In this document: piece after piece, positions 2,121 to 24,326 of the stretch | Numbering within the stretch: the first letter of the stretch is position 1 | Layout of the letters: each line of letters begins with the position of its first letter | Assembly (NCBI RefSeq): GCF_025210435.1 | Contig: NZ_JAOART010000104.1 | Location: 1-34,944 of the forward strand | Direction of reading: 5' to 3' | DNA from: Anaeromicrobium sp. | Lineage (GTDB): Bacteria > Bacillota > Clostridia > Peptostreptococcales > Thermotaleaceae | DNA length: 34,944 bases | The notes under the pieces: generated by a model | The model's database searches: none | The model's input: the letters and a program-made list of their open reading frames with translations, nothing else | Told to the model about the DNA's origin: nothing | Made by a program: the position numbers and the translations under genes

Positions 2121-2355
2121 TATAGATCTTTTGGTTTTAAAATTGTTTTATATAGTAACTTGCCTATAAGGGAAACCATTGAAAATCTTTGTAATTGAGG
2201 AACGTCACAACATCCTATGATACTCCAACATGACTCATGAACCTATCTACGAAGATTCACCCTTTCGCTTGTGACAAGGACTTGGGTGGAAAAGATTTTC
2301 AATGGTTTCGTGAAATAGGCTCACATAAAGCTGGTTCATAATCAAGAAATCTATA
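2121..2355 (+). repeat. Dispersed structured repeat, copy A (MITE-like, 235 bp)
   Basis: One of four full-length copies in this window (others at 16596, 19286, 24088), all in the same orientation. The ends are imperfect inverted repeats of the form TATAGATTT...AAATCTATA. Inside are an 18-bp perfect stem (2173-2190 with 2291-2308), the inner pair GTCACAA/TTGTGAC, and a highly conserved core of about 90 bases. It carries no coding frame. Relative to the other copies both arms of the main stem are shorter and differ in matching ways (CCATTG with CAATGG), so pairing is kept. The right end supplies the TAG stop of the AIM24 gene. Confidence 0.85.
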
Positions 2356-3085
2356 TATTTCTAGGTGGATATTTCTTAGTAGGCGCAAGCCAAACTTCAC
2401 CAGTTCCAGTAAAGGTTTGTAAAAGTCCTTCTTTCTTAGATTTCTCTAGTTTTGTTTTTATATCTCCCCTTATAACAACAGCCAAACTACCATCAACCTT
2501 TAATGTATCATTATTTAGCTCATACATTAAAATTTCATCAAAGGGAACATAACTCTCTAAAATGGCGATTCCATTTCCACTTAATTTAGGTTGCCTAAAG
2601 CCATCTGCTGTTAGTAATCCCACTGCCACATCCTTATTAACATGGACAGAGACTTGAATGGAATCTTCACAACAATAGAACATTCCATCCCCTAGAATAA
2701 TTTCTTCATCACATAATTCTAGCATGTAAAAATATTTGTAAGAAGGGTCTAAGTATATTTCTCCTCTTTTTCCTGAATATCTAGATGTAAAGGAGGCCTC
2801 TCCCGTTCCCACACTCTTAAAAAATCCCTTTGCTTGGGATGGAGCATTTTCTTGAACTTCAATCATTAGTGGTCCTTTCATAAATTGTAAATCTCCCGGT
2901 TGTACTAAAACACCACTATCATTTATTTTAATTCTAACCTGTCTTAACCTTCCTCCATCAAACCTATTTTCAACAGTGTGTCCCTTTCTAGGTTTTATAT
3001 ATTCTATTATTTCAAAAATGGTACCATTTTTACCTGTTTCTTTATCTATTACCCTTACTGCATTTGAAAAATCTGGGTTAAACAT
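2351..3085 (-). CDS. AIM24 family protein
   Basis: A 244-residue soluble beta-rich protein of the AIM24 (TIGR00266-like) family. Features are QVRIKINDSGVLVQPGDL near the N-terminus, a glycine-rich middle, and the closing FTGTGEVWLAPT motif. The bacterial role of this family is not settled; the name comes from a yeast mitochondrial protein. I chose ATG 3085 because the AAAGGAGG site is 9 bases upstream; another ATG three codons earlier abuts the site directly. It has its own sigma-A promoter. Its TAG stop lies inside the terminal repeat of repeat copy A, so the last residues may have been set by that insertion. Confidence 0.85.
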   Translation of the reverse strand: MFNPDFSNAVRVIDKETGKNGTIFEIIEYIKPRKGHTVENRFDGGRLRQVRIKINDSGVLVQPGDLQFMKGPLMIEVQENAPSQAKGFFKSVGTGEASFTSRYSGKRGEIYLDPSYKYFYMLELCDEEIILGDGMFYCCEDSIQVSVHVNKDVAVGLLTADGFRQPKLSGNGIAILESYVPFDEILMYELNNDTLKVDGSLAVVIRGDIKTKLEKSKKEGLLQTFTGTGEVWLAPTKKYPPRNI

Positions 3086-3132
3086 GATAAACATCCTCCT
3101 TTTATTTCATAAACATTACTACTCTTACAATA

Positions 3133-3161
3133 ATTGTAAACAATAATTGAATACATATCAA
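3133..3161 (-). promoter_or_regulatory. Sigma-A promoter of the AIM24 gene
   Basis: On the minus strand TTGATA and TACAAT are separated by 17 bases, close to the vegetative consensus. The -10 box is about 50 bases upstream of the chosen ATG. Confidence 0.65.
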
Positions 3162-3190
3162 ATACATAAAATTATTTGTCTATCCTCTAA

Positions 3191-3234
3191 CTAGGATAAA
3201 GGGATGGTTAATATTAACCATCCCTTTATCTTAG
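3191..3234 (-). terminator. Hairpin at the end of the rocB-like gene
   Basis: A 36-nt perfect palindrome (3195-3230), extended by a GT pair and three more pairs to 3191-3234, overlaps the stop codon of the M20 peptidase gene. There is no real loop and only a weak T tract, so it may work as a terminator or mRNA-end stabiliser. Confidence 0.65.
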
Positions 3235-4886
3235 TGCTTATATTTAAATAATTCATCCACAATAAACCTTACTAATTTAGGAGTCACATTATAAGAGTAA
3301 TCTACCAATATTCTCTCTGTATACTTATGAGGGTCCCTTCCATGGGGACCATAGTTCATTACGGGTAAATCCAATTTTTTTATTTCCTCAATTGGCACCT
3401 CATATCTAATTCCCCAGGCAGGCATATTAGGTTTTAAGTACTCTACTACTTTATCTGCATCTTGTACAGCAAAATAGCTTAAATCAGATAAACCTTGGAA
3501 GTACCTTTGTTTCAATATTTTTTCTCCATACTCTTTATCTGCCTTTTCTATTAATTTATCGCATACCTTAACAATATGCTTTTCAAAATCTGTCTCTTCC
3601 TTTAATCCCACATGTGGATAATAGGGTGGAGCAAAAAATAGTATTATCATGGGCTCCCTTACTGGACAATATCTTTGAGTCTCAGCCACTATTTTAGTAC
3701 TAAGTTCCCTTTCATCAATGGAACTATCCACTTTCCATTTATTAATACATTCTTTTAAGTGATTCTCAAATTCTTCTCCAGCTGATTCTACACATAGTTT
3801 ATATAGTTGATCATAGGTATAAACTACAGGATTAAATCCATCTCCTCCTACAGGTAATTTAGACATATTCTTATATATTTGTCTTTGTATATCTACTTTA
3901 TCACAAGCATCTTTTATGGCTTCTTGTGCATAGGTTCTTATTTTGTCTATAAAGTCCTTCGGATTCTTTTGTAGAGTTGGTATATTTATATAGGATACTC
4001 CCCTAACTGGAGTTTGAACAGAATATAGATCCTTCAAATCCCTATACTTTAAGCATGTTGGTGGCAATGTTACCTCAGAGCCTACCATATCAGATAGTTC
4101 CGTATTAACTTCCACCCTTCTCATAAACTCTGAGGCTATTAAATCCACATTTACTCCTGCTAAGGACTCTCCCACATGGGCCTCTTTTCCAACAAAGAAA
4201 CATCCTAACAATAGTTTTCCAGCTGTTCCAAAGTATACATACTTATTATCATCCCCTGGATATGATGCAAAATCAGGTTCACAATTAAGTACAGCTATGG
4301 GATTTAATCCCCTCTCTTCTATTAGTTTATTTAAAAAAGGAATTCCTGCTATAACTCCCTCTGAGTTAGATTCTTCATCAGGAACTACTATTAATAATAA
4401 ATTTCCATTAAAATCATCTCTCATTCCATACTCTTCTAAAAGGGACATTTGAATGGCAGCACCTGTTTTCATATCCATGATTCCCCTACCAAATAACCAT
4501 TCACCTGATAGTAAATCATTTTTTGCATCGTCTCCCAATGTATTTGGATCTAATCTTTTAGTATATTCATAGGGATCAAAGGCATATTCCCTTAGTTTCC
4601 CAAAATCCTCCACATCCACCGTATCCATGTGACTCACTAATATTAAAGTATCCTTAGAACTTCCATTACCTTCAGCTAATCCACATACAAAATGCCTATC
4701 TAATGGATCATTAAGGGGTTTTAAAAAAACATTCTGTGGATTACTTTTAAAATATTCAGTATTTTTCAACAAGTCATATACAAGCTCTGCCATATTTTTC
4801 TCTGAAGAGGTTCCAGATACACTGTCCTGATTAACTAAAGTTATTGACAAATCCTTAAGTCCCTGTGGACTATTCCATTTCAACAT
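3231..4886 (-). CDS. rocB: M20 family metallopeptidase, RocB-like (arginine/ornithine utilisation)
   Basis: A 551-residue cytosolic protein matching the RocB branch of M20 peptidases in length and motifs: SHMDTVD (His86, Asp88), RGIMDMKTG (bridging Asp138), and PDEESNSEG (Glu171/172 as base and metal ligand). RocB is linked to arginine and ornithine use in Bacillus, but its substrate is not established; a deacylase or peptidase acting on an ornithine or arginine conjugate is possible. I chose ATG 4886, preceded by an AGGGGGG site; a longer frame to 4958 would overlap the upstream symporter by 59 bases. It sits 13 bases after the symporter gene, so the two are co-transcribed, and its placement directly after the ornithine operon supports the pathway link. 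Confidence 0.8.
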   Translation of the reverse strand: MLKWNSPQGLKDLSITLVNQDSVSGTSSEKNMAELVYDLLKNTEYFKSNPQNVFLKPLNDPLDRHFVCGLAEGNGSSKDTLILVSHMDTVDVEDFGKLREYAFDPYEYTKRLDPNTLGDDAKNDLLSGEWLFGRGIMDMKTGAAIQMSLLEEYGMRDDFNGNLLLIVVPDEESNSEGVIAGIPFLNKLIEERGLNPIAVLNCEPDFASYPGDDNKYVYFGTAGKLLLGCFFVGKEAHVGESLAGVNVDLIASEFMRRVEVNTELSDMVGSEVTLPPTCLKYRDLKDLYSVQTPVRGVSYINIPTLQKNPKDFIDKIRTYAQEAIKDACDKVDIQRQIYKNMSKLPVGGDGFNPVVYTYDQLYKLCVESAGEEFENHLKECINKWKVDSSIDERELSTKIVAETQRYCPVREPMIILFFAPPYYPHVGLKEETDFEKHIVKVCDKLIEKADKEYGEKILKQRYFQGLSDLSYFAVQDADKVVEYLKPNMPAWGIRYEVPIEEIKKLDLPVMNYGPHGRDPHKYTERILVDYSYNVTPKLVRFIVDELFKYKH

Positions 4887-4899
4887 GGTTATTCCCCCC

Positions 4900-6276
4900 C
4901 TATACTCTCTCTTTAGTCCTTGCGCCTGGATAGTACTTTGGATTATTAAAGAAGTCATCTTTAATTTCCTTCACTTCCTTAGTCATTAAGACTAGACCAA
5001 TCATATTTGGTATTATGATAGCTGCTAATAAAATATCTAAGAATTGGTATAAGAACTCTATTCCACCTACTGCCCCTAAAAATATAGCTAAAATATATAC
5101 AACTCTCATTACTTTAGAAAAACCTATTCCAAATAAGTATTCTGCCTGTTTTTCTCCATAATAAACTACTACTATGATAGTAGATATAACAAACATTAAT
5201 ATACTAAAGGTTACAATGCCTCCACCTAAAGAGTCTCCTAATAAGGATTGGAATGCTCTAGCTGGCATGGATGCTGCTTGGTCTGCAGGGACTTCTTTCC
5301 AAATCCCTGTAGTTAATACTACAAAGGCAGTTGTTGTACATACTATTAATGTATCTACTACAATTTCAAAGATTCCCCATAATGCCTGTCTTGCTGGGTG
5401 ATCAGTTATGGCTGCTGCGTGGGCTATAGGAGCCGTTCCCATACCTGCTTCATTAGAATATACTCCCCTTGCTATACCCCATCTCATAGATTGAGCTATG
5501 GCTGCTCCTGTAAATCCGCCTGTTGCTGCTATTGGAGTAAATGCATGACCGAATATTAACATTATAGCTTCTGGTATTCTTGAGGCATTACCGATTATTA
5601 TAATAAATGCTCCCACTAAATATAACATGGCCATAAAGGGAACTAGCTTTTCCGTTACTTGTGCAATTCTCTTAATTCCTCCATATACTACTAAGGCTAC
5701 TACTACTGCAACAACTACACCACTGGCCATGTTAGGTATACCTATTGTATTAGCCGTTTGTACTACAGATACGGTTTGAGTTGCTATGGATGGTATTAAC
5801 TCTACCATTAACCCAAAGGCAAATAAGGCCCCCATAAATGGAGATTTTAAACCTTTCCTTAAATAATACATAGGTCCACCTACATATTCTCCGTTTTCAT
5901 TTTTCTCTCTGTATTTAATTCCCAATATGATTTCTGAAAACTTTGATGCAGCTCCTATTAGAGATACTAACCACATCCAAAATATGGCCCCAGGTCCACC
6001 AAAGGCAATGGCAACTGGCACTCCAACTATATTAGATGCACCAATAGTTGATGCAAGAGCTGATGTTGCCGCCTGAAATGGTGATATGGTTCCTTCTCCT
6101 TGGGCCTTTTGAAATATCTTTCCAAAGGTTTCTCTCATAATAAAAGGAAAGTATTTAAATTGAAAAAATCCAAGTGATATGGTGAGCCACAAACTTCCTC
6201 CCACTAAAATGATTAACATGGGTGTGCCCCATATCCACCCCGATAAATCTCCTACTAACTTCAAAAAGCCTTCCAT
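4900..6276 (-). CDS. Sodium:alanine/glycine symporter (AGCS) family transporter
   Basis: The 458-residue protein has about 10-11 membrane helices and the AGCS family signature: GTISPFQAATSALASTIGAS, GGPGAIFWMW, and YVGGPMYYLRKGL around residues 60-145. AGCS carriers use Na+ to import alanine, glycine or related small amino acids. In this context it could take up ornithine or alanine, or export alanine made by the thiolase step; the sequence does not decide. An AAGGGGG site precedes ATG 6276. It is separated from orr by a strong hairpin, so its level may differ from that of the pathway enzymes. No clear promoter was found in the 50 bases between that hairpin and the gene. Confidence 0.88.
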   Translation of the reverse strand: MEGFLKLVGDLSGWIWGTPMLIILVGGSLWLTISLGFFQFKYFPFIMRETFGKIFQKAQGEGTISPFQAATSALASTIGASNIVGVPVAIAFGGPGAIFWMWLVSLIGAASKFSEIILGIKYREKNENGEYVGGPMYYLRKGLKSPFMGALFAFGLMVELIPSIATQTVSVVQTANTIGIPNMASGVVVAVVVALVVYGGIKRIAQVTEKLVPFMAMLYLVGAFIIIIGNASRIPEAIMLIFGHAFTPIAATGGFTGAAIAQSMRWGIARGVYSNEAGMGTAPIAHAAAITDHPARQALWGIFEIVVDTLIVCTTTAFVVLTTGIWKEVPADQAASMPARAFQSLLGDSLGGGIVTFSILMFVISTIIVVVYYGEKQAEYLFGIGFSKVMRVVYILAIFLGAVGGIEFLYQFLDILLAAIIIPNMIGLVLMTKEVKEIKDDFFNNPKYYPGARTKERV

Positions 6277-6340
6277 AAAAAATTTTCCCCCTTTTGATTT
6301 TTACTTGTTAAACATTGTAAATTATTTAACAATTTATTAA

Positions 6341-6382
6341 AAAGAAGACAGTTATTTATGTCTTAAAATAACTGTCTTCTTT
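6341..6382 (-). terminator. Rho-independent terminator after orr
   Basis: A 17-bp perfect stem with an 8-base loop, followed on the minus strand by a T5 run. It begins 3 bases after the orr stop codon and 65 bases before the symporter start. It should end, or reduce, transcription from the upstream operon. Confidence 0.85.
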
Positions 6383-6384
6383 CT

Positions 6385-7449
6385 TTAAAGGTATTCTTTA
6401 TGTACATACTTAGATGTCATGCTACGAAGTAAAGTACCATATGCCATATTAAACTTAATCTCATCTCCTATTTTGTATTCCCTAGGACAGTCCGTAACGT
6501 CCACGATTAAATGGTCACTACTACTACCTAATATGATAATATTCTCATCTATTGGATATATGCTATCCAACATAATATCCTGCTTTCCAACTCCTAAGAT
6601 TGCTCTTTCCCTTATACCCCTGTCTTCAAATAGTGGCACATTACCAAAGGCATCCTTCCCAATTTCCCCTATTGGTACAGATGGCTTTTCCTTTAACTCT
6701 ATAATTTGAGCAACTAATTGAAATACATCATTATGGGTATTTTCTATTTTTTCTCCATAGGCCGTTTCATTCCCTAATAAAATGGCCTCTCCCAATCTTA
6801 CATTATTTATTCTCTTAGGCATTCTTCCCTGTCCTATAAGATACACGCTACTTGAATTTCCCCCTGATATTAAACTCAACTCTATGTTAAATTTTTTTTC
6901 TATTTCTTTAGCATACCTTTCCAATTTTCCAAGATTAATTTCATCTGGTATAACTGCTCCAAAGCAAGTTAAATTAGTTCCAACACCTATTAGTTTAATA
7001 CCCTTTAACTTTAAAATCTCCTCCACTGTGAAAAATATATCCTCTTCTAAAACCCCTTCCCTAAGATCTCCCAAATCTAACATTAGTACAACCTTGTGTA
7101 CTTTATTCTTTCTTAATGCCTCTTTAGATAGTTCTTTCATAGTGTCTATTTCAGAATTTAAACTTATATCCACATAATCTATAACATGACTTATTTCGCT
7201 CATCATAGGTAACCTTAATAACAACTTTTCCTCTTTAAACCCTGCCAAATTCTTAAGATTCTCAGTCCTAGCATCACCTATTAAATCTATACCTTCCTCA
7301 ACTATGGCCCTCGTAATCCTCTCGTCACCACAAAAGGCCTTAGTAACTATGGCAGGTCGTATATTTTCCTTTGAACATAAATGGACTAATGTTTTCGTAT
7401 TTTCTTTTAGTTTTTCTAAATTCACTTCAATTCTTGGGCACTTTTTCAT
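6385..7449 (-). CDS. orr: Ornithine racemase (PLP, alanine racemase N-terminal fold)
   Basis: The 354-residue protein is a fold-III PLP enzyme that lacks the second domain of full alanine racemases, as the clostridial ornithine racemase does. The N-terminal RPAIVTKAFCGDERI holds the PLP lysine (Lys37), and glycine-rich phosphate-binding segments follow (SGGNSSSVYL, RLGEAILLG). It converts L-ornithine to the D-form used by the aminomutase. ATG 7449 has a GGGGTGA site. It lies 13 bases after the MutL-like gene, in the same order as described ornithine clusters. The ORN-specific name rests on context plus family; other amino-acid racemases have the same fold. Confidence 0.9.
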   Translation of the reverse strand: MKKCPRIEVNLEKLKENTKTLVHLCSKENIRPAIVTKAFCGDERITRAIVEEGIDLIGDARTENLKNLAGFKEEKLLLRLPMMSEISHVIDYVDISLNSEIDTMKELSKEALRKNKVHKVVLMLDLGDLREGVLEEDIFFTVEEILKLKGIKLIGVGTNLTCFGAVIPDEINLGKLERYAKEIEKKFNIELSLISGGNSSSVYLIGQGRMPKRINNVRLGEAILLGNETAYGEKIENTHNDVFQLVAQIIELKEKPSVPIGEIGKDAFGNVPLFEDRGIRERAILGVGKQDIMLDSIYPIDENIIILGSSSDHLIVDVTDCPREYKIGDEIKFNMAYGTLLRSMTSKYVHKEYL

Positions 7450-7462
7450 AGTTTATTCACCC

Positions 7463-8818
7463 CTAAATATTCAAACTATTTTTCAACAGATTAATTGCAG
7501 CTTCCCTATGCCTTTTAGATAATACTCCTAAGGATGCCATTATATAATCATTATCTATTAAAATCCCAGCAGTCTCCTTAGGAAGCAGATAATCCCCTTT
7601 AACTAACTTCATTATGCCCTTTAATATTTCTATTCTTCCATCTAGCCTAGTTAAGGCTCCTCCAGTTCCAACGATCCACCTTATACTAGTTAAATCCTTT
7701 CCCTCTGCATATGTTTTCTTTCCACCTGGCCCAAATATACTTCTATATCTACCTGCATGCCTCATGGTGGCCGTCATAACGGCTTCCCTTGTAAGTATTT
7801 CTACGAATTTTTTTAGTATGGGTGTATCAGGGATAGGCTTATGATTTTTAATTACATCCTCTATAGGTACTCCTAATTCATCAGTTAATTTATCCTTACC
7901 TATCCTTTCTACTATATTCTCCATATTAACGTATACACCTAGATCTCCTTCCACAGTTCTTTTAGCTATAGGTTCTGGACTTAATACTATCCTTTGTATT
8001 TCTTCAGAACCTTCTGTGACAGAATGTAGATCAGTGGTAGCTCCCCCCACATCTAATGTGATTAAATCTCCAATCTCTTTCTTTAGTACTTTTGAAGCTT
8101 CCATAACAGCTCCAGGTGTTGGTATTATAGGTCCCGTTACAAGTTCCCTCACTTTAGTCATGCCTGGGGCATGGATTATATGATCTTCAAAGGCATCCTG
8201 TATGACTTTCCTTGTAGGTTCTATGTTTAATTCGTCTATTTTAGGATATACATTCTCAACTATATATAATTTATTGTCTAAATCCTTAAATATTTCTTTT
8301 ATTTCCTCCTGGTTTTCCACATTCCCTGCATATATGATAGGAGACTTTATACCAGAGTTAGCTATGATTTCAGCATTATATATGGCCGTATCCCTCTCAC
8401 CATAATCTACTCCACCAGCAATTAATATTAAGTTAGGATTTATATCCTTTATGGCCTTTATGTCAGTTCTTCTAAGTTTACCTGCCGTCACCTTGTGTAT
8501 TATGGCACCAGCTCCTAGGGCAGCCTCTTTAGCTGCCTTAGCAGTCATATCATAAACAAGACCATGTACTGTCATTTTAAGACCACCAGCAGCACTACTT
8601 GTGGCCAACATTTCGTCATACTCTATTTTCTTAACTTTTAATTTCTTCCTTAAATCTTCTATAGCTCCATTTAAACCAATATTCACATCCCCCTCTATTA
8701 CAGAGGTTGCAGCTTGCCCCTGACCTATAAACTTAGGACAAGGACTATCTATATAATTAAATCCATTAACTACAGTAGTGGTGCTCCCAATTTCCGCTAC
8801 TAGTACATTAATTTTCAT
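7463..8818 (-). CDS. MutL/GlmL-like ASKHA protein, probable aminomutase reactivase
   Basis: A 451-residue protein of the GlmL/MutL family found beside B12-dependent mutases. The N-terminal ATPase phosphate loop VLVAEIGSTTTVVNGF is followed by a second phosphate motif, ITLDVGGATTDLHSV, both typical of acetate-kinase/Hsp70-type ATPases. In glutamate mutase systems the homologue is thought to keep or restore the active cobalamin form, so the partner here should be OraSE; this is inference. Its ATG lies inside the end of oraE (ATGAAAATTAA, 11-base overlap), which indicates translational coupling and roughly fixed stoichiometry with the mutase. Confidence 0.87.
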   Translation of the reverse strand: MKINVLVAEIGSTTTVVNGFNYIDSPCPKFIGQGQAATSVIEGDVNIGLNGAIEDLRKKLKVKKIEYDEMLATSSAAGGLKMTVHGLVYDMTAKAAKEAALGAGAIIHKVTAGKLRRTDIKAIKDINPNLILIAGGVDYGERDTAIYNAEIIANSGIKSPIIYAGNVENQEEIKEIFKDLDNKLYIVENVYPKIDELNIEPTRKVIQDAFEDHIIHAPGMTKVRELVTGPIIPTPGAVMEASKVLKKEIGDLITLDVGGATTDLHSVTEGSEEIQRIVLSPEPIAKRTVEGDLGVYVNMENIVERIGKDKLTDELGVPIEDVIKNHKPIPDTPILKKFVEILTREAVMTATMRHAGRYRSIFGPGGKKTYAEGKDLTSIRWIVGTGGALTRLDGRIEILKGIMKLVKGDYLLPKETAGILIDNDYIMASLGVLSKRHREAAINLLKNSLNI

Positions 8819-11018
8819 CTAACATTTCCCTTCTCTTTTTAACAAAGAAAGTAGCCACATGAACCCCTTTAGATCCTCTACCAAATCCAGCGTCTACACC
8901 TTGTTTTACGGCTATTTCTGGAGTTACTTGTGTTCCTCCACAGGCTATGATTATCCTGTCCCTAATTCCCTTTTCTACACATAGTTCATGGATTCTTTTC
9001 ATGTTCTTATAGTGAATATCATCATGGCTTATTATGGTTGATGCAAGTATTGCATCTGCATTAGTTTCTATGGCAGCATCTACTAATTTTTCTACAGGTA
9101 CAGAGGTTCCTAGGTAGTCACATTCAATACCATACTTTTCTATACCACCATGTTTAATATCTATAATTTCTCTGAGTCCAACGGAGTGCTCATCTTCTCC
9201 TACTGTGGCACATACTATTTTAAATGGGTTATTTTCAATATCTTCCCTAATTTCATCATCAGACATGATCTCTGGCTCTGGAGGTATAACTAAGGAATCA
9301 AGATCTATGCTAAATCCAACCTTCCCCTTAACTTGTACTCTAGTTCCTTCTGCTGGATGCATGATTTCTCTATGGATTACTTCCACTTCCTCAAGGCCCA
9401 TCTTCTTTCCTATTTCTATGGCAGCAGCCTCTGCAACCCTCTTAGACACTGGTAAGAATAAATCAAACTGAACTACTCCATCTCCAAGCCACTCTACTTC
9501 TGGCTTTACTATATTCTTTTCTCTTAAGTCCTTTGTTTCTTCCATTCTCACATTAACATTGTCCATTTCATCTAATTCATCTATATAAATTATCTTATCT
9601 GAATCTTCAAGTGTAGAACCACCTATAAGGTCAGCTGGATTTTCTACACAATACTCATCGTATTGAGCCACATTGTTATATCCATAGTGGGCAGTTACAG
9701 GGGCTAGGTAATCCTCATCCCTCTCAAATATAGTGCCTACTCCTATGCCTCCATTTATCTTTCTTCCTATTCCGTCTCCATTCCTCTCTGGATAGGAACC
9801 TGAATCTACGAAAAATGCATCTTCTACAGACTTAAAGTATCCCCCATCTTCTAATATTTCTTCCATGAATAAAACTGCCCTTTCCTTAAGTTCCCTAACC
9901 TTTTCTGGTAAATATCCCTCTTTTTTTAGTTCCACTAAATCTAGTAGTCCATCCATCCCAACTAATCCTTGTTTTGCCGTATCACAAGCCTCCACATTAT
10001 AAATATGCCATGGTACGTTTCTACCCTCATCAGGAGTAATAGTTGATTGAATATCTGCACTTGTAAGTCTTGAAATAAGTAGATTAAGTACATGGGTTAC
10101 TGTGGCCTCCCTTGTGGATGATTCCATATACTTTGTATTCATCTGTGCCCTCATTTTGTATTCTGAGAATAAGTCACGCAGTGCCACTGCATAAGGTAGG
10201 TCTATGTGTAGACAAGGTGCTGGTGGTGCTGTTGGCGGTACTGTAGATAAACAAATATTAGATTTTTTCATACCTACCTTAACGGAGAATATACTATTTA
10301 GGCCATGTTGAACCATAAGTTCAGGCATTACCTTCCAAGCTTCCCTTGCTGTGGCATTAGCATTGTGAGCTCCATCTATTTGAGCTATATCTGCCCAAGT
10401 CATGATTTTTTTAGATTCTGCCGCATCTACAAAGGAACGAACCATGTTTATATTTCTATAAAGTACATTGTATTGGGGGTCTTGGTGAGCGCCATTTACT
10501 CCCTCTTCTGCAAACATTACTGCTATTTCAGGACCTGCTACTCCACTAATGTAGGAATGATAATTTATTTCTCTTCCTACTTCATCTTCAATAAAATCTA
10601 AGGCCTTTCTTTGGGCTCTAACTTGTTTTCTAGTAATAGGTATTCCACCAATTCCTTGGGGAGTTCCCTCTATAAGTCCATCAAAGTGAGATTGTCCAGC
10701 TGTCCTTATAACCATTATGTGATCAGCTCCATGCCATGCTGCCATTCTCATTCTTCTTATGTCATCTTCAAATCTGCCAGAAGCTATTTCTGTAGTTATT
10801 GTATATTCTGGCTGTGGGTCAATGTCACCAAAGTACTTAGCACTAGGTAAGGGAACACTATTTTTTAGAGGTTCTGAGCAGTTTTTAAATTGGAAGGGAC
10901 CTATTTTAAGTCCTGGAACTTCTTCTCTCCAAACCCATCCACGTCTTTTAGGCCTATAATTTTCTAAATCATTTAAAATCTCTTTAACATCTATCTTTTC
11001 ATTCATATCTAACTTCAT
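8808..11018 (-). CDS. oraE: D-ornithine 4,5-aminomutase, large subunit (B12 and PLP)
   Basis: At 736 residues this has the normal OraE length. The N-terminal two-thirds form the TIM-barrel and adenosylcobalamin/PLP region (for example AAWHGADHIMVIRTAGQSH at 93-111). The C-terminal Rossmann domain carries DEHSVG (D609-x-H611-x-x-G), the base-off cobalamin motif. Lys622 follows His611 by 11 residues, the same spacing as the cobalt-ligating histidine and PLP-imine lysine in the C. sticklandii enzyme. It moves the terminal amino group of D-ornithine to C4, giving 2,4-diaminopentanoate. ATG 11018 has GGAGGT 8 bases upstream and overlaps the oraS stop by one base (TAATG). It works as a heterodimer with OraS. 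Confidence 0.97.
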   Translation of the reverse strand: MKLDMNEKIDVKEILNDLENYRPKRRGWVWREEVPGLKIGPFQFKNCSEPLKNSVPLPSAKYFGDIDPQPEYTITTEIASGRFEDDIRRMRMAAWHGADHIMVIRTAGQSHFDGLIEGTPQGIGGIPITRKQVRAQRKALDFIEDEVGREINYHSYISGVAGPEIAVMFAEEGVNGAHQDPQYNVLYRNINMVRSFVDAAESKKIMTWADIAQIDGAHNANATAREAWKVMPELMVQHGLNSIFSVKVGMKKSNICLSTVPPTAPPAPCLHIDLPYAVALRDLFSEYKMRAQMNTKYMESSTREATVTHVLNLLISRLTSADIQSTITPDEGRNVPWHIYNVEACDTAKQGLVGMDGLLDLVELKKEGYLPEKVRELKERAVLFMEEILEDGGYFKSVEDAFFVDSGSYPERNGDGIGRKINGGIGVGTIFERDEDYLAPVTAHYGYNNVAQYDEYCVENPADLIGGSTLEDSDKIIYIDELDEMDNVNVRMEETKDLREKNIVKPEVEWLGDGVVQFDLFLPVSKRVAEAAAIEIGKKMGLEEVEVIHREIMHPAEGTRVQVKGKVGFSIDLDSLVIPPEPEIMSDDEIREDIENNPFKIVCATVGEDEHSVGLREIIDIKHGGIEKYGIECDYLGTSVPVEKLVDAAIETNADAILASTIISHDDIHYKNMKRIHELCVEKGIRDRIIIACGGTQVTPEIAVKQGVDAGFGRGSKGVHVATFFVKKRREMLDEN

Positions 11019-11383: not shown

Positions 11384-11455
11384 AGTTTTCCCTCCTAGGA
11401 AATTAAGGTTTAGGGTTTAGATATTTTCTCCCTTAACCCTTAACCTATAGTCTAT

Positions 11456-14434: not shown

Positions 14435-14652
14435 ATCTTTTCCAATAAAATAAAAAGGATACCCCTTATAAGATACCCTTTCGAAAAATACTATTGAGTC
14501 ATATTCAAAAAATAAATTAGTCATTTCACTGGTTATTTGAATTATTTTCTTCGTTATGGAGTCCCTTACATATGTTTAATATGCTCACTCACCATGCCTT
14601 GAAAATAATTGAAATTCCCTAGTGCCCTGACTAGTTTATTTTTTTCATATGC
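14435..14652. other. Rest of the intergenic region between the operon and the 251-residue gene
   Basis: Apart from the control region it holds a short direct repeat of GATACCC (near 14459 and 14474) and a weak 5-bp hairpin CTAGT/ACTAG (14619-14634) that might end the 14653-15408 gene. I see no gene here. Confidence 0.4.
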
Positions 14653-15408
14653 CTAATTTTTCTTTTTAAGTTCAGTTATTATGTCCTCCATAGGATTACT
14701 TAACCAATTATAATTAGATATTTTTAATTCTTCATTATTATTAAAATAACTATTTGCCACTAAATTAGGATGTATATAACCTCCTAGGAAAAATACCTGA
14801 TTTTTTGGTTCCTTTAAATATGATTTTAGATTATTTATATGCATTTTCTCATAGTTTTGAAGAATTTCTCTATTTTCAGATTTTAATATTTGCCTATTAT
14901 CAATGTCCCTATCTATTATTTTCTTAGTAAATTCCTTATCTAATCCATTTTGGTGTGATAAAACTATTATATATATATTTCTTCTATTTATTCCATATTT
15001 TAAACATTCATTTACCATATTTTTAGTCAAATCATAAAAGGCCTCTTTTCTATAATATCCTAGATCTGTAAGTATTCTAAGGGCTCCCGTATATCTCTTA
15101 TCCTTTTTAAATAAAATCATTCCATAATTATCACTTTCTTCCATTTGAAAATTTTCCATTCTAATAGAAAAAAAATCTACATATTCTTTCATTAGATTCT
15201 TGTAAATCCTTATGGATGATTTTTTCCTCAATCCCTTTTTCTGCTTTAGCTTTTCTTCATCATAATATACCTTTGTAGTTATTTTAAATAACTCCTCTTC
15301 TAAATTCTTACTTTCTTCAAACCTAAAATCATATGTTCTTTTATTTTCCAGTAATTTTTCTATGTTCTTTAAAGTGTCATAAATTTTTTCTAAGGTATCT
15401 TTCTCCAT
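14653..15408 (-). CDS. Uncharacterised 251-residue protein
   Basis: A charged, lysine-rich, soluble protein that I do not recognise. The first 40 residues look like a short coiled coil (MEKDTLEKIYDTLKNIEKLL). The middle (about 95-150) reads like an alternating beta/helix region (MILFKKDKRYTGALRILTDL, NRRNIYIIVLSHQNGLDKEF), and the C-terminus has GGYIHPNLVANSYF. No signal peptide or membrane helix is seen. I prefer ATG 15408 over a GTG four codons earlier because GGTGAG precedes only the ATG. It is bounded upstream by a strong terminator, so it needs its own promoter. It lies between the ornithine operon and its presumed regulator, but nothing ties it to the pathway by sequence. Confidence 0.75.
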   Translation of the reverse strand: MEKDTLEKIYDTLKNIEKLLENKRTYDFRFEESKNLEEELFKITTKVYYDEEKLKQKKGLRKKSSIRIYKNLMKEYVDFFSIRMENFQMEESDNYGMILFKKDKRYTGALRILTDLGYYRKEAFYDLTKNMVNECLKYGINRRNIYIIVLSHQNGLDKEFTKKIIDRDIDNRQILKSENREILQNYEKMHINNLKSYLKEPKNQVFFLGGYIHPNLVANSYFNNNEELKISNYNWLSNPMEDIITELKKKN

Positions 15409-15433
15409 AATCTCACCCACTTTGAGTAAATTA

Positions 15434-15461: not shown

Positions 15462-15506
15462 AATAATATATTCATGAAATTCTCAAATATTCTCCTTGTT
15501 AATAAT

Positions 15507-16382: not shown

Positions 16383-16595
16383 CCTAAGACCTCCCTATTA
16401 ATATTCATTTCACACATTTAAACTATATAGTTTCACTATTTCTTATACGTATAAATACTAGTTGTTATATCTTTATGATTTATATAATGAATATTATTCC
16501 AAATTCTAACCTTAATTCTATGAATTTTATTATTCATTTTTAATTCATACATAGTCTCAAGTGGTGAATATAATAAATAGGGTTCGTTCATTGAC
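16383..16595. other. Upstream region of the membrane protein gene
   Basis: AT-rich DNA with the perfect palindrome TTATACGTATAA at 16443-16454, about 60 bases upstream of the membrane protein start, which could be an operator. No GG-N10-GC sigma-54 promoter and no clear sigma-A promoter were found. Confidence 0.4.
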
Positions 16596-16834
16596 TATAG
16601 ATTTCTTGATTTTAAATTTGTTTTATTCAGTAACTTGCCTACAAGGGAAAATATATTGAAAATTTTTGGAACCCTGGAACGTCACAACATCCTATGCTAC
16701 TTGAACATGACTCATGAACCTATCTACGAAGATTTACACTTTCGCTTGTGACAAGGACTTGGGTGGAAAAAATTTTCAATATCTTTTCCTAAAGTAGGCT
16801 CACATAAAGCAAGTTTATGACCACGAAATCTACA
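16596..16834 (+). repeat. Dispersed structured repeat, copy B (MITE-like, 239 bp)
   Basis: Full-length copy with termini TATAGATTT...AAATCTACA and the same core as the other copies. The main stem is 16646-16667 with 16769-16790. Here a C-to-T change in the left arm is matched by a G-to-A change in the right arm compared with copies C and D, so that pair is kept; one other position is unpaired. The right end overlaps the stop codon of the sigma-54 activator gene on the opposite strand. Confidence 0.85.
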
Positions 16835-18212: not shown

Positions 18213-18289
18213 TTCTTCACTACCTTTGAAATTATTTGTACATGATAATTTCTCTATTAGAAAGACTTTTTCCTCTTATGCTTTATTGA

Positions 18290-18345
18290 AAATAAGTAAA
18301 ATAGATAGGTGATTATAAAAACTCACCTATCTATTTCACTTATTT
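18290..18345 (-). terminator. Long hairpin after the chemoreceptor-like gene
   Basis: A 23-bp stem (18290-18312 with 18323-18345) with one mismatch and a 10-base loop. It lies between the stop of 18410-19246 and the start of the activator gene. It should separate these two transcription units. Confidence 0.75.
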
Positions 18346-18409
18346 CCAATATTTTAATCAGTTTACCTTAATTGAGCCTAGAGATTATGTTTCATTAACT
18401 TATAAATCT

Positions 18410-19246
18410 CTATTGCAGATTTTCAGATAATTTTATTAGGCTGGCTGATATGTCATTTAATCGTTGAGCTCCAGCTGCCACCTGTTCTGTTTGAACCGAT
18501 TGTTCTTCGGTAACTGCTGCAAAAGTATTAATGGAATCAATCATATTATTAATATCATCTCTAATTCTAGTTAGTGTTATGGTTATTTTTTCCGTTGAGT
18601 TTTTGCTATTCTGTGCTAATTTCCTTATTTCTTCAGCAACTACTGCAAATCCCCTTCCGTGTTCACCAGCTCGTGCAGCTTCAATTGCTGCATTAAGTCC
18701 CAATAAATTTGTAGTATTAGCCACATTGTTAATATACATAAGAATATCGTCCATACTTTTGATTTGTTCCTCAATACTCTTAATATTACTGTTAAAATCT
18801 TGACTACTTACTGCTAATTCTTGAGATGAATTAGCAAGTCCTTGTGAAGAAAAAGATAATTGTTCAGAAAATGTTTGTAATTCCTTGGCCGTCTCTATAA
18901 CACTATTTTCTTTTTCCTGAGAAATTGCAAAAGTAATGGTTCCAACTACATTCCCTGTATCATCATTAATTAATGGAATGGCATAAGCAATTATAGGAAA
19001 TCCAAAAACTTCTTTAGGATATCGTGCAACTTGTCTTTGTCTTGTAGTCATAGTCTTTTGAGAAGCTCCACCCTCTACTAAGCTCATGTTCTCTTGAACA
19101 TTTAATTTGAAAGAGTTAGGTTGTTTTACCAAAAGAAATTTTTCTGTATCCGTAAGACCAACCCCTGCATCACTAGTAAAAACAGAACATAGAACATTAA
19201 AAAATTTTTCTATCATAGTAATAAATTCCTTATCATTTAAATGCAT
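18410..19246 (-). CDS. Soluble methyl-accepting chemotaxis-like protein
   Basis: A 278-residue protein with no membrane helix. The first 130 residues look like a PAS/GAF-type sensor (for example [31 protein letters not shown]). The C-terminal half is a methyl-accepting signalling coiled coil with the conserved hairpin tip ([20 protein letters not shown], then EEIRKLAQ), which contacts CheA and CheW. It is short for the family, and the helix after the tip is only about 60 residues. It is a cytosolic receptor whose stimulus is unknown. AAAGGAAG precedes ATG. Repeat copy C lies 39 bases upstream of the start codon, in the place where the promoter should be. Confidence 0.88.
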
Positions 19247-19285
19247 ACAATCTTCCTTTCTTAAGTTAAAACTAAAGTATACTTA

Positions 19286-19524
19286 TATAGATTTCTTGGT
19301 TTTAAAATTGCTTTATACAGTAACTTGCCTATAAGGGAAAATATATTGAAAATCTTTGGAACCCTGGAACGTCACAACAGCATATGCTACTCCAGCATGA
19401 CACGTGAACCTATCTACGAAGATTCACACTTTCGCTTGTGACAAGGACTTGGGTGGAAAAGATTTTCAATATATTTTCCTGAAATAGGCCCGCATAAAGC
19501 AAGTTTATACACCAGAAATCTATA
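19286..19524 (+). repeat. Dispersed structured repeat, copy C (MITE-like, 239 bp)
   Basis: The best-preserved copy. Termini TATAGATTTCTTGG and CCAGAAATCTATA are near-perfect inverted repeats. The main stem has 22 perfect pairs (19336-19357 with 19458-19479), with GTCACAA/TTGTGAC inside. It lies just upstream of the chemoreceptor-like gene (minus strand), so promoter elements for that gene may lie in the repeat. It is joined head to tail with a deleted copy, sharing TA at the junction. Confidence 0.88.
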
Positions 19525-19597
19525 TAGATTTCGTAACACTAAGATTTCTTTATACACTAACTTGCCTATAAAGTTGGTTTATAAATACGAAATCAGA
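19523..19597 (+). repeat. Internally deleted derivative of the dispersed repeat (about 75 bp)
   Basis: It has the left end of the repeat (TATAGATTT...CTTTATACACTAACTTGCC, most like copy D) joined directly to the right end (AAGTTGGTTTATAAATACGAAATC). The break falls at ATAA, a four-base sequence present on both sides in full copies, so a microhomology deletion explains it. All of the conserved core is gone. Confidence 0.75.
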
Positions 19598-19765
19598 TTT
19601 CACTAATTCTGACAATTTAAAAATTCTTCAAATTTTACAATTGATTATCATTATACAGTATTTTATTATATTGTCAAAAGTTTATAATACAATACTCTGA
19701 AAAAGTCATACTTCCTATGCTTCCTATGAAATATTATGGTTCCCTTCCACTGAAGCCAAATAAAA
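19598..19765. other. Intergenic stretch between repeats and fabI terminator
   Basis: AT-rich DNA with no gene or clear signal beyond a short direct repeat of CTTCCTATG (near 19710-19730). Confidence 0.4.
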
Positions 19766-19797
19766 AATCCTTGAAAGTATATTTACTCTCAAGGATT
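19766..19797 (-). terminator. Terminator after fabI
   Basis: Stem AATCCTTGA-AGTA/TACT-TCAAGGATT (14 positions, one mismatch), followed on the minus strand by a T6 run. It starts 10 bases after the fabI stop and ends the four-gene envelope operon. Confidence 0.85.
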
Positions 19798-19806
19798 ATA
19801 TATTTA

Positions 19807-20577
19807 TTATCCTACCATGCTAAATCCAGCATCTACATGGATAACTTCTCCAGTTACGCCTGTGCTTAGATCACTGCATAAGAACACTGCTGTTCCTCCA
19901 ACCTCTTTAGGGTCAACTGTTCTTCCTCTTGGAATCTTTTCCTCTGCCTGCTTTAATAAGTCATTAAAGTCTTTTACTCCCCTAGCTGCTAATGTCTTAA
20001 TAGGTCCTGCTGATATGGCATTAACTCTTATTTCCCTTTCTCCAAGATCCTTAGCTAAGTATCTTGTAGATGCTTCTAGGGCTGCTTTAGCAACTCCCAT
20101 AACATTATAGTTAGGAATAGCTCTTTCAGATCCTAAATAAGTTAATGTAAGAATTGACCCACCTTCAGTCATGATTTCTTGAGCGTATTTAGTTGCTAAT
20201 ACAAATGAATACGCACTAATATCATTTGCTAATTTAAATCCATCTCTTGAGGTATCATAGAAATTTCCTCCTAATTCTTCCTTCTTAGAATGGGCAATAG
20301 AGTGAACTAGTCCATGTAGTACTCCAATATCTTCCTTTAATTGGCCAAATACTTGTGCCACATTATCATCATTAGTAACATCACATTCATAAACCTTAGC
20401 ATTCTTCATTTCTTCACCAAGTAATTTTTCTAAGTTTGACAGACTTCTTTCACCTACATATGTAAATGCTAGGTTTGCTCCATGTTTATGTAGCTCTTGT
20501 GCTATTCCCCATGCAATACTTCTTTTGTTTGCAACTCCCATTATTAGGATATTTTTACCTTTTAATAATCCACTCAT
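19807..20577 (-). CDS. fabI: Enoyl-[acyl-carrier-protein] reductase (NADH), FabI
   Basis: A 256-residue short-chain dehydrogenase of the FabI branch. The N-terminal NILIMGVANKRSIAWGIA is the typical FabI cofactor loop (GxxxxxSxAxG). The catalytic Tyr157 and Lys164 (YNVMGVAK, Y-x6-K) and the second Tyr147 (TYLGSERAIP) are present. It performs the last reduction of each fatty-acid elongation cycle and is the target of triclosan. I chose ATG 20577 with AAAGGAGAGG just upstream rather than an ATG seven codons earlier. It follows the PBP gene by 29 bases with no terminator, so it is the last gene of the FHA-SEDS-PBP operon instead of lying in a fab cluster. Confidence 0.95.
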   Translation of the reverse strand: MSGLLKGKNILIMGVANKRSIAWGIAQELHKHGANLAFTYVGERSLSNLEKLLGEEMKNAKVYECDVTNDDNVAQVFGQLKEDIGVLHGLVHSIAHSKKEELGGNFYDTSRDGFKLANDISAYSFVLATKYAQEIMTEGGSILTLTYLGSERAIPNYNVMGVAKAALEASTRYLAKDLGEREIRVNAISAGPIKTLAARGVKDFNDLLKQAEEKIPRGRTVDPKEVGGTAVFLCSDLSTGVTGEVIHVDAGFSMVG

Positions 20578-20606
20578 AAGTACCTCTCCTTTATCCATAA
20601 TTTTAT

Positions 20607-22004
20607 CTATTTATTCAATACATTTAATGCATTTTTTAATATGTCCCTTGCTATAGGAGCTGCCGATACACCCCCACCTTTTCCCTCATTCTCCAAAACT
20701 ACTACTACTGTAACCTTCGGATCATTTGCTGGTGCAAAACCTACAAACCAGTCATGGGATTTGGAATTTGTCTGGGCTGTTCCCGTTTTACCAGCTACTT
20801 TTACTCCATTTATTTGGGCTCTTTTCCCCGTCCCAAATTGTACCACATCTATCATCATATTAGTTAATTTCTTTCCATCATATGGACTAATAACATTTGA
20901 TAATGGTTTTGGCTCAGTAAGCTCTATTATCCTATTCCTACTATCTGTAATCTCTTTTACTAGGTAGGGCCTCATTATATCTCCATCATTTCCTATGGCA
21001 GAAGTTACCATAGCCATATTTATTGGAGTAACTAAAAGTTTTCCTTGTCCAATAGATAGGGACCCTAAATCTACCTTTGACATTCTCCTATCTGTTGGAA
21101 AAACTGAATTTTTAGTTGTTATATCAAAATATATGTCCCTATTAAACATATATTTCTCCCCTGTCTTTTTAATTTTATTATAACCCAAATCTAATCCCAT
21201 TTGAGCAAAGGCCACGTTACAAGAATAAGTCAAAGCCTTCCTCATGTCAACTTCTTTATGGGCTATATTTTTATAGTCCTTTAATACAAATCCATCAATA
21301 GTAATTTGACCTTCACAAACATAATTGGGATTAAGGTCATAGTTAAGGGCACTAGTGGCCGTTACTAACTTAAATACGGACCCAGGTGTATAAAGTCCTT
21401 GAGCTGCTCTGTTAAGTAATGGACTATTCTCATTATTAGCTATGGCTTTCCAATTTTCCACTAATTCATTAGGATTGAAATCTGGTTTACTAACTAATCC
21501 ATAGATTTCACCTGTTTTAGGATTCATAGCAACTACAGCACCCTTTTTTCCCCTCATTCTCTTTTCCATATGAGATTGGATTTCATGATCTATAGTCAAA
21601 ATCAAATTATTTCCCTTATTATTCCCACCAATTATAGTATCTCGTACCCTTTCAATAGCAGATTTATCAAATCCCAATAATACCTTATTAAAGGATTTTT
21701 CAAGACCTGATTTACCATATTCTTTGAAAGAATATCCTATTATGTGAGAATATGTATTTCCAAAGGGATACCTTCTTATTTTATCATCATTTTCATTATT
21801 ATCTGCTAATATTACTTTATTTCTATCTAAAATTTTTCCCCTTAAAATATTATCTTCTTTTATCCACAGTCTCTTATTATAGGGATTATTAATTATTTCA
21901 TCTACTTTAAAAATTTCAATATAACTTAAATTTAGTATTAGACCTAGATACATGATACAAAAGAGCAATAGGACCTTTATAATTCTTTTAGATATGATGT
22001 TCAT
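20607..22004 (-). CDS. pbpA: Class B penicillin-binding protein (PbpA/PBP2-type transpeptidase)
   Basis: The 465-residue protein has one N-terminal membrane anchor (about 8-30), a short dimerisation region, and a transpeptidase domain with all three motifs: SVFK (Ser209-Lys212), SCN (261-263), and KTG (406-408). It crosslinks peptidoglycan outside the membrane. It is short for class B, like the PbpA proteins that pair with a RodA/FtsW-type polymerase next door. It overlaps the SEDS gene by 17 bases, indicating a functional pair. Confidence 0.93.
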   Translation of the reverse strand: MNIISKRIIKVLLLFCIMYLGLILNLSYIEIFKVDEIINNPYNKRLWIKEDNILRGKILDRNKVILADNNENDDKIRRYPFGNTYSHIIGYSFKEYGKSGLEKSFNKVLLGFDKSAIERVRDTIIGGNNKGNNLILTIDHEIQSHMEKRMRGKKGAVVAMNPKTGEIYGLVSKPDFNPNELVENWKAIANNENSPLLNRAAQGLYTPGSVFKLVTATSALNYDLNPNYVCEGQITIDGFVLKDYKNIAHKEVDMRKALTYSCNVAFAQMGLDLGYNKIKKTGEKYMFNRDIYFDITTKNSVFPTDRRMSKVDLGSLSIGQGKLLVTPINMAMVTSAIGNDGDIMRPYLVKEITDSRNRIIELTEPKPLSNVISPYDGKKLTNMMIDVVQFGTGKRAQINGVKVAGKTGTAQTNSKSHDWFVGFAPANDPKVTVVVVLENEGKGGGVSAAPIARDILKNALNVLNK

Positions 22005-23220
22005 CTTTATCCTCCTGATATGTATCTATTTCTTCAGAAGCCACTTGAAGTATACCTACTAATAAAAAACTAGAAACCAGTGAACTTCCCCCATAGCTTA
22101 CAAAAGGAAGGGTAACTCCCGTAAGAGGAATAAACTTTGTAACTCCACCTATTATTATAAATGCCTGAAATCCTAATATGACTGTCATTCCAATAGAAAC
22201 TATCTTAAAAAATCTATCATGTTGATTGAGGGCTATTTTAAAACCCCTATATATTAATATTAAAAACAACATTATTACTGCAATTCCACCGAATATACCC
22301 AATTCTTCACATATGGCTGAAAATATGAAATCCGTATGAACTTCAGGTATTAATTTAGGATATCCAAGGCCTAATCCCGTACCAAAGAAACCACCTGAAC
22401 CTATGGCAAATAAAGACTGGGTTATTTGATACCCTTCCTTTTCTATATACTTCCATGGGTCTAGCCAGGCTATAACCCTAACTCTCACGTGGTATACAAA
22501 TATATAACTTAATATGGCTATTATAATGGCCAATAGGATTTGAACATATATTTGTTTCCTATCATCTTCATTAATGTATAAAATCATGAAAAAAGTAAAA
22601 TAAAATATCATGGCTGTTCCTAAATCCCTTTGAATAAATAAAAATAATATAAATACATATATGGAACATAAAAATACATAAAAATTCATTTTCTTATTAG
22701 AATAATAAGAAGCCATATAAAATACAAATAATATTTTAATTAATTCTGATGGTTGTAGTCCAATTGATCCTATTTTAATCCAGTTAATAGCGCCATTTAT
22801 CTTATCCCCTAAAATTAAAGTTAAAAGAAATAAAACAACGGATATTATCATATAATGATTAGTCCAAATTTGCCAGTTTTTTACCCTTTTAATAGTCATA
22901 TAAGTTGCAAAATAAAAAATTATTCCAATGGCAAACCAAGCCACTTGCTTTAAACCATATCTAGGATTTAATCTATAAATCATTATTATACCTATACTAG
23001 ATAACATACTGACTATAAGAAATATATAATTATCACCAAGGGGAGATAATTTAGACAAAAAATGATTTGCCACATATATGGTTATAATAAAGAGACTTCC
23101 CCATAAAAGGGTTGCTGGATCAAACACACTTTTATACATATAAAGTAAAAATATTGCCAGGAAATTTATTAAAACTATTAAATTTTCAGGCATCTTTTTA
23201 AAGAAGAAATCATTAAACAT
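21988..23220 (-). CDS. SEDS family peptidoglycan glycosyltransferase (FtsW/RodA/SpoVE)
   Basis: A 410-residue polytopic protein with about ten to twelve membrane helices. It has the SEDS signatures: GINWIKIG-like GAINWIKIGSIGLQPSEL around 150, QRDLGTAMIF near 205, and a C-terminal VTLPFVSYGGSSLVSSFLLV. It polymerises lipid II glycan strands together with its cognate class B PBP, which overlaps its 3' end. Whether it serves division, elongation or sporulation is not clear; the FHA-SEDS-PbpA order resembles the RodA-PbpA clusters of Gram-positives. Confidence 0.94.
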   Translation of the reverse strand: MFNDFFFKKMPENLIVLINFLAIFLLYMYKSVFDPATLLWGSLFIITIYVANHFLSKLSPLGDNYIFLIVSMLSSIGIIMIYRLNPRYGLKQVAWFAIGIIFYFATYMTIKRVKNWQIWTNHYMIISVVLFLLTLILGDKINGAINWIKIGSIGLQPSELIKILFVFYMASYYSNKKMNFYVFLCSIYVFILFLFIQRDLGTAMIFYFTFFMILYINEDDRKQIYVQILLAIIIAILSYIFVYHVRVRVIAWLDPWKYIEKEGYQITQSLFAIGSGGFFGTGLGLGYPKLIPEVHTDFIFSAICEELGIFGGIAVIMLFLILIYRGFKIALNQHDRFFKIVSIGMTVILGFQAFIIIGGVTKFIPLTGVTLPFVSYGGSSLVSSFLLVGILQVASEEIDTYQEDKDEHHI

Positions 23221-23222
23221 AA

Positions 23223-23660
23223 CTACACCTCTTTAACAGTATCCACATATAAAAACTCTACCCGTCCCATTTTTATTCTATCTCCATTTTGCAACATAAC
23301 CGTATCTATTATCTTTTCTCCATTAATAAAGGTTCCATTTGCACTATTTTCATCTTTTATTAAAAAATAGTCCTCGTTTAAAATTATTCTGGCTTGATAA
23401 TTTGATATGGTTGGATCCTTTATACTTATATGATTATCATTTTTTCTTCCTATGGACATGGTTTTGTCTAAAGGATATACTTCCTTTATTTTAAAGGGTA
23501 AGGTGTCTTTTCTATTTATAAGCTTTAAATATGGACAATTTCCAATTAGCCCTGTCATATTTTGAATATCCAAATAAATCATTTTCATAATATTAAATAT
23601 AAATAGATATATTATTAAAATAAATGCATACTTGATTATTGTTGAAAAAAAATTATACAT
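23223..23660 (-). CDS. Membrane-anchored FHA domain protein
   Basis: A 145-residue protein with one N-terminal membrane segment (about 8-28) and a cytosolic FHA domain with the expected motifs: SIGRKNDNHI, then TISNYQAR, and NSANGTFINGEKI. FHA domains bind phosphothreonine, so a Ser/Thr kinase partner is implied; none is in the window. It lies 2 bases before the SEDS gene, so it likely helps to control the SEDS-PBP pair, as in the FHA-RodA-PbpA clusters of Actinobacteria. I chose ATG 23660, which has GGAGGGAGG just upstream; an ATG five codons earlier lies on top of that site. Confidence 0.9.
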   Translation of the reverse strand: MYNFFSTIIKYAFILIIYLFIFNIMKMIYLDIQNMTGLIGNCPYLKLINRKDTLPFKIKEVYPLDKTMSIGRKNDNHISIKDPTISNYQARIILNEDYFLIKDENSANGTFINGEKIIDTVMLQNGDRIKMGRVEFLYVDTVKEV

Positions 23661-23956
23661 ATATCCTCCCTCCATATCTATTTTACCATTTATTATCTAC
23701 AATCCCAAAGCATATTAAAGTTTATCCATATAATTCCTCTTAAATACTATACACTATAAATATTAAAAAAATATTAATTTTAAAAAACTTTATAGATTTA
23801 TTTTATAGAATATTCTAATGTTTTTCCATTTCTTCATTATAGTGGAAAATCAAGAGTATCTTTTAGTATACAAGAGTTTTTTTCATTTTCCACATTAAAA
23901 TAGTCAAAAATATGACATGCTTTTTTTTCTAGATAATGGTAAACTATATTTGTCGA
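23661..23956. other. Divergent intergenic region between the FHA operon and tRNA-Pro
   Basis: Very AT-rich. It should hold the promoters of the envelope operon (minus) and of the tRNA (plus). The only symmetric site I see is the perfect palindrome TAGAATATTCTA at 23806-23817. No promoter matches strongly enough to be called. Confidence 0.4.
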
Positions 23957-24033
23957 CGGGGTGTAGCGCAGTTTGGTAGCGCATCTGGTTTGGGACCAGG
24001 GGGCCGCGGGTTCAAATCCTGCCACCCCGACCA
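23957..24033 (+). tRNA. tRNA-Pro (anticodon TGG)
   Basis: A full cloverleaf can be drawn: acceptor CGGGGTG with CACCCCG, D-arm GCGCAG...AGCGC, anticodon arm CTGGTTTGGGACCAG with TGG in the loop, T-arm with GGTTCAAATCC. The discriminator A and CCA (24031-24033) are encoded. The TGG anticodon reads proline codons. It is a single tRNA gene followed by its own terminator. Confidence 0.97.
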
Positions 24034-24036
24034 TTG

Positions 24037-24067
24037 AAAAAACTTAGCAGATTCTGCTAAGTTTTTT
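24037..24067 (+). terminator. Terminator of tRNA-Pro
   Basis: A 14-bp perfect stem AAAAAACTTAGCAG/CTGCTAAGTTTTTT with a 3-base loop, ending in T7. It starts 3 bases after the tRNA CCA. Confidence 0.92.
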
Positions 24068-24087
24068 TATTTTTACCATATACTACC

Positions 24088-24326
24088 TATAGATTTATCA
24101 ACCCTAAGTTTTCTTTATACAGTAACTTGCCTATAAGGGAAAATTTATTGAAAATCTTTGGAACCCTGGAACGTCACAACATCTTATGCTAATTGAACAT
24201 GACACATGAACATATCTACGAAGATTCACACTTTCGCTTGTGACAGGGACTTGGGTGGAAAAGATTTTCAATATATTTTCCTGAAATAGACACACATAAA
24301 GCTGGTTTATAAATGATAAATCTATA
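24088..24326 (+). repeat. Dispersed structured repeat, copy D (MITE-like, 239 bp)
   Basis: Full-length copy between the tRNA terminator and the GH18 gene, ending 26 bases before its ATG. Main stem as in copy C with one mismatch in the left arm; GTCACAA/TTGTGAC is kept. Termini TATAGATTT...AAATCTATA. Its position means the GH18 leader or promoter must lie in or against the repeat. Confidence 0.86.

Follow-up and report, generated by a model that had tools for sequence, protein, structure and literature searches.

The RUP repeats of Streptococcus pneumoniae, described together with IS630-Spn1, are small, gene-less, intergenic elements with inverted ends, a TA target and ends in common with an IS630-family element (PMC2229807, PMC3049150); this and all other statements on published systems are limited to the excerpted text of the cited reports. 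An element with comparable traits is present in four full-length copies of 235 to 239 bp in a 34,944-nt stretch of DNA from Anaeromicrobium sp. (the window, which is one whole contig, C58, of a draft genome of 3.96 Mb in 148 contigs). It differs from RUP in being twice as long, in carrying a large covarying core and in that 89% of its sampled copies lie in one orientation, compared with 60.9% of RUP on the leading strand. For the pneumococcal BOX, RUP and SPRITE repeats, 60.8-63.3% are on the leading strand, mirroring the coding bias (PMC3049150). ERIC of enterobacteria is likewise an intergenic imperfect palindrome with TA termini and target duplication, and its transcripts are folded; however, it is 127 bp long, has another sequence, and its orientation is reported for an effect on mRNA, not for replication polarity (PMC2229807). 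The bcr1-bcr18 repeats of Bacillus cereus are also intergenic and resemble miniature inverted-repeat transposable elements (MITEs), some with a conserved predicted RNA structure, but they have other sequences, a TTTAT motif and a recombination-like mechanism rather than TA-duplicating insertion of IS630 type (PMC3446304, PMC6542083). Insertion orientation tracks replication direction for Tn7 (TnsE), IS200/IS605 and clamp-binding families of insertion sequences (IS) (PMC5371812). These are autonomous, whereas the present MITE carries no gene and has a likely IS630 (DDE) partner. In the literature listed by searches on MITE orientation and replication, no comparable polarity was found beyond the weak bias in PMC3049150.

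We consider it rather probable that the element is a TA-duplicating MITE, likely moved in trans by an IS630-type transposase, and apparently inserted at a fixed orientation to the replication fork.

Family size, mobility and a candidate IS630-type partner

A covariance model of the core was built from 34 copies in three genomes (alignment A1). Matches were obtained in 3 of 298 genomes of the order: at least 150 in the window's genome, 82 in a congener (G001) and 4 in one other genus (G015). The first figure is the number of candidates scored and hence a lower bound, in which a few matches at contig ends could be one copy in two parts; the other two each include one match on the opposite strand of an already counted copy. 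The family is thus larger than the four window copies from which the preliminary description had proposed it. That description knew of no named family, and no Rfam family was reached here: in an Rfam scan of the window tRNA alone reached gathering scores, and the copy C region gave a single sub-threshold miRNA hit (E 0.7). Phage, plasmid and viral collections gave no match, the viral search being for one exact 22-base pattern.

The element is a non-coding MITE that duplicates TA on insertion. Its terminal inverted repeats are TATAGATTT...AAATCTATA, and of 199 copies with flanks, 144 have no more than 1 mismatch at either tip. Only 1 of 225 copies overlaps an open reading frame (ORF) of at least 90 aa, and no ORF of at least 80 aa is found inside the 239-bp element in the window. 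Some derivatives, 63-117 bp long, retain both ends but lack the core. Between the two congeners, the identity of orthologous flanks is mostly 85-94%. For 135 copies tested in the window's genome, an orthologous site was found for 36 (15 called empty, 14 occupied by some other extra sequence, 7 holding a copy or a fragment of one), and for 71 tested in the congener, for 18 (11 empty, 3 other, 4 with a copy); some of the 'empty' calls are loose, the site being shorter than expected. In 4 of 21 filled/empty-site alignments a lone TA at the empty site corresponds to TA on both sides of the element, exactly at C39:10360 and C11:9293 of the window's genome (G000) and with adjacent differences at C2:138024 and C18:12497 of G001 (positions within segments).

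Some sites are filled in both congeners by full copies whose relative orientation agrees, with scores that suggest different subfamilies (G000 C5:6843, C73:6416 and C95:3446 versus G001 C6_100001:52063, C15_75001:6063 and C2_10001:88062). These may reflect shared target hot spots, replacement or concerted evolution.

The transposase that moves the element in trans is likely of IS630 type and encoded elsewhere in the genome. In the window's genome one IS630-type gene is represented by five pieces, four at contig ends (C114, C94, C39, C137) and one, on C42, unplaced. The C114 piece is DDE_3 (75.7 bits); its match to NCBIfam transpos_IS630 spans profile positions 175-297 of 299 and, at 88.4 bits, falls short of the cut-off of 100. 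The coding sequence of this piece leads at its end into CACATAAAACAAAGTCTTTACCACGAAATCTATA and then into unrelated flank, and the C94 and C39 pieces stop at the same base with differing flanks, the shared end being AAATCTATA. This IS630 end is matched at 24 or more of 34 bases by 88 of 174 MITE right ends and 28 of 156 left ends, compared with 4 of 996 other ATCTATA sites used as control; the right end of copy B, CACATAAAGCAAGTTTATGACCACGAAATCTACA, agrees with it at 27 of 34 bases. An autonomous relative with the same ends had been envisaged in the preliminary description. A likely one, of IS630 type, was found, with the right end in three IS copies; the left end was not seen.

A scan of 2.5 Mb for pairs of element ends that might bound an autonomous element gave pairs that were mostly core-less derivatives, and three ORFs enclosed by paired ends encode a GerAC germination protein, a symporter and an FAD protein. 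Looser settings yielded 1450 candidate pairs, of which the best 25 were inspected. An IS630-like fragment on C107 did not show the shared IS630 end within the 700 bases examined, and the IS630-type gene of G015 is a distant match (29%).

Orientation of the copies relative to replication

The preliminary description placed the four window copies in a single orientation, and all are confirmed on the + strand (A, 2121-2355; B, 16596-16834; C, 19286-19524; D, 24088-24326). This turned out to be the most informative part of its title. Polarity was determined on sequence selected mainly because it contains copies (1.44 Mb from the window's genome, 1.11 Mb from the congener). Of 235 hits, the 225 with coverage of more than 110 model positions were used (153 and 72, respectively). 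Replication direction was proxied by GC skew in the draft assembly, the G-rich strand being the presumed leading strand, and copies were masked for the 10-kb skew; genes were plain ORFs, and the analysis covers three genomes. With the 10-kb skew, 199 of 225 copies run against the G-rich strand (135/153 in the window's genome, 64/72 in the congener), and with the 5-kb skew 201 of 225 do so (137/153 and 64/72). Among the congener's exceptions are four copies that each belong to a different pair of neighbouring copies in inverted orientation (C2:312541/312770, C3:421/658, C8:109270/109450 and C17:36930/37164 of G001).

Young copies are as biased as old ones. When the copies were divided into thirds by an age proxy, it held for 47, 44 and 46 of 51 in the window's genome and for 21, 21 and 22 of 24 in the congener; at sites empty in the other genome it held for 24 of 26. 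As an internal negative control, a second family of intergenic repeats, sampled in that 1.44 Mb as well, had no orientation bias (32/58).

For oriented insertion, an IS630-type transposase would act in trans on the gene-less element, and the polarity would arise at insertion, not by later selection, when asymmetric ends engage the fork or a clamp complex; GC skew is presumed to mark the leading strand. A connection of the clamp with IS orientation has reportedly been treated by Gomez et al. in 2014.

Several observations weigh against oriented insertion by such a transposase. GC skew of a draft assembly stands in for replication direction. ORFs of at least 150 aa are co-oriented with the G-rich strand in 85.4% of cases (1502/1758), so that gene direction is a confounder of polarity, and the 8 tandem contexts whose genes oppose the G-rich strand are evenly divided; the four that follow replication have a 5-kb skew of at least 0.07 and the four that follow the genes one of at most 0.06. 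Lone ends fit the polarity in only 11 of 16 cases. Two-ended core-less derivatives share the bias in 9 of 9, which suggests that the ends alone suffice and that the core may not set the polarity, unless these derivatives are deletions in place. As to mobility, 17 of the 21 empty-site alignments do not settle the duplication (too diverged, decayed tips or extra bases), and only half of the transposase gene and one end of the IS, that resembling the right end of the MITE, were seen. G001, with its 82 element matches, gave no match to the IS630-type transposase; its older-looking copies would fit a family that has lost its engine.

It is possible, though on the whole unlikely, that insertion is unoriented and that selection quickly purges copies whose folded RNA has the other sense in co-transcribed genes, through polarity, termination or mRNA stability as in ERIC, so that the bias tracks gene direction and follows replication only via the genes. 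Between tandem genes, 137 of 149 copies are antisense to both genes, with a median of 44 bp from the upstream stop to the copy, and the even split of the opposed tandem contexts is in line with such purging, as is the orientation-dependent effect of ERIC on transcripts (PMC2229807). However, copies between divergent genes (16/20) and convergent genes (10/13) still follow replication, 26 of 33 together. The equal bias of young copies, the unbiased second family in the same spacers and the bias shared by core-less derivatives also speak against such selection.

The folded core and its covariation

The fold of the core is kept through compensatory change in several subfamilies. Stem and core of copy C fold at -44.9 kcal/mol versus -22.1 kcal/mol for shuffles (z -7.1); the z values of copies B, D and A are -4.35, -4.21 and -3.95. 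Three helices were located on the + strand of copy C: P1 (GCCTAT, 19327-19332, partner 19484-19489; 98.0% of cells paired, double changes in 4 of 6 pairs), the long stem P2 (19340-19357, partner 19458-19475; double changes in 10 of 13 modelled pairs) and P3 (GTCACAA, 19371-19377, partner 19436-19442; 100% of cells paired, double changes in 3 of 5 modelled pairs). A structure of 38 pairs, derived from the same A1 sequences, has 91.2% of cells paired and scores 0.401 for covariation, with double changes in 24 of its pairs; kinship among copies inflates the counts. Shuffled A1 gave 77.5%, 16.1 pairs and 0.153; with the structure slid by 1-3 columns the values were at most 47.7%, 13 pairs and 0.127. 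P1 alternates between GCCTAT/ATAGGC and ACTTAC/GTAAGT, and P3 between GTCAC/GTGAC and ATCAG/CTGAT, while the innermost hairpin inside P3 (helix 7) is weak, with 71.8% of cells paired. Inverted termini, stem, the GTCACAA/TTGTGAC pair and the in-step changes (CCATTG/CAATGG versus TATATTG/CAATATA, T-A versus C-G), all reported in the preliminary description, are present in the sequence, and strong covariation extends across many copies.

The same description held the core to be more conserved than a passive MITE needs; that each resident copy retains it beyond the needs of a mobile family is not clearly supported. Private substitutions in the window's genome are rarer in paired core columns (24 of 7912 cells) than in unpaired ones (67 of 11827; p 0.007), whereas in the congener the figures are 29 of 3628 and 49 of 7774 (p 0.33). 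Selection on pairing in resident copies is therefore supported in the window's genome and not in the congener. As a guide to the strand that folds, G-U departures were compared with A-C departures; they stand as 71 to 9 in P2 of the congener and 11 to 14 in P2 of the window's genome, and at the terminal tips as 22 to 50 and 41 to 56 in the two genomes, without pointing to one strand.

A possible reason for the retention of the paired core is that master copies propagate only when folded, either as RNA or as single-stranded DNA at the fork. More tentatively, and we would not expect it to hold, the core could be a strand-specific fold which forms while the element is single-stranded at the fork, couples a gene-less IS630-type MITE to replication and fixes its polarity. 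If true, a single mechanism, which we know of for no MITE, would underlie both the selection on structure and the nine-in-ten orientation bias.

That the in-step changes arose mainly by arm-to-arm template switching or gene conversion within the palindrome, and not by selection on the fold, appears improbable. Blocks do move as units (CCC/GGG to TTG/CAA), and among 114 copies there are mixed ones, 9 with TTG/GGG and about 5 with CCC/CAA. Window copy A is one such, with TTG facing GGG unpaired where others have CCC/GGG or TTG/CAA, a point overlooked before. On the other hand, double changes affect 24 of 38 pairs in three subfamilies, and single P3 pairs are swapped among the congener's 70 copies (57 C-G versus 8 G-C; 55 G-C versus 11 C-G). 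Moreover, the equally palindromic tips pair less than P3 (965/1098 versus 846/854 cells in the window's genome).

Movement as single-stranded DNA by a Y1 transposase (IS200/IS605 or REP type), which would explain hairpin and polarity together and for which the genome has three Y1_Tnp genes and IS200/IS605 elements, which recapitulate replication direction (PMC5371812), offer a precedent, is very improbable, because TA is duplicated, while elements of those types lack target duplication and inverted termini and the present one has long inverted termini and ends common to an IS630-type gene.

Window copies, neighbouring features and significance

Copy A is also one of the covariance-model matches in A1, and copy D lies between tRNA-Pro and a glycosyl hydrolase 18 gene. 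The left tip of copy C, TATAGATTT, is at 19286-19294, its outer TA being the likely target duplication, and the right tip, AAATCTATA, at 19516-19524 (both + strand). Two further pieces had been overlooked: a core-less, internally deleted derivative adjoining copy C (19523-19595, + strand), with a decayed right tip and an end read by eye, and a lone right-end piece (1425-1483, - strand).

Just upstream of copy A, ORF 1645-2091 matches Amidohydro_3 over no more than the initial 139 of its 472 positions and is preceded by ORF 1340-1648, so the gene is truncated or broken. To the right of copy C and outside the element, a 12/12 sigma-70-type match (TTGACA, 16, TATAAT) is at 19650-19677 on the minus strand. 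Around copy C there was no promoter- or terminator-like excess (5 promoter-like sites versus 3.3 expected, none strong within the element). The second repeat family, likewise overlooked before and unrelated to the element, is 162 bp long (TTAGGCATAT...ATATGCCTTA) and has a copy in the window at 14496-14656; the 1.44 Mb from the window's genome contain 58 copies and the sequence sampled from the congener 1. Window positions 1-158 and 34783-34940 are inverted copies (95% complementary) of another repeat at both contig ends, which probably caused the assembly to break there. Elsewhere (L147, about 9593-10853; G000 C120), a tandem array of a unit with AATTCCCAAAGGGAATTATATGTTCTTCTAAC looks CRISPR-like by eye.

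Small bacterial repeats are mostly treated as passengers, and this gene-less element has a near-fixed polarity. With 225 sampled copies in two congeners, both filled and empty sites, derivatives that lack the core and a likely transposase, it is a testable system for the coupling of DDE transposition to the replication fork.

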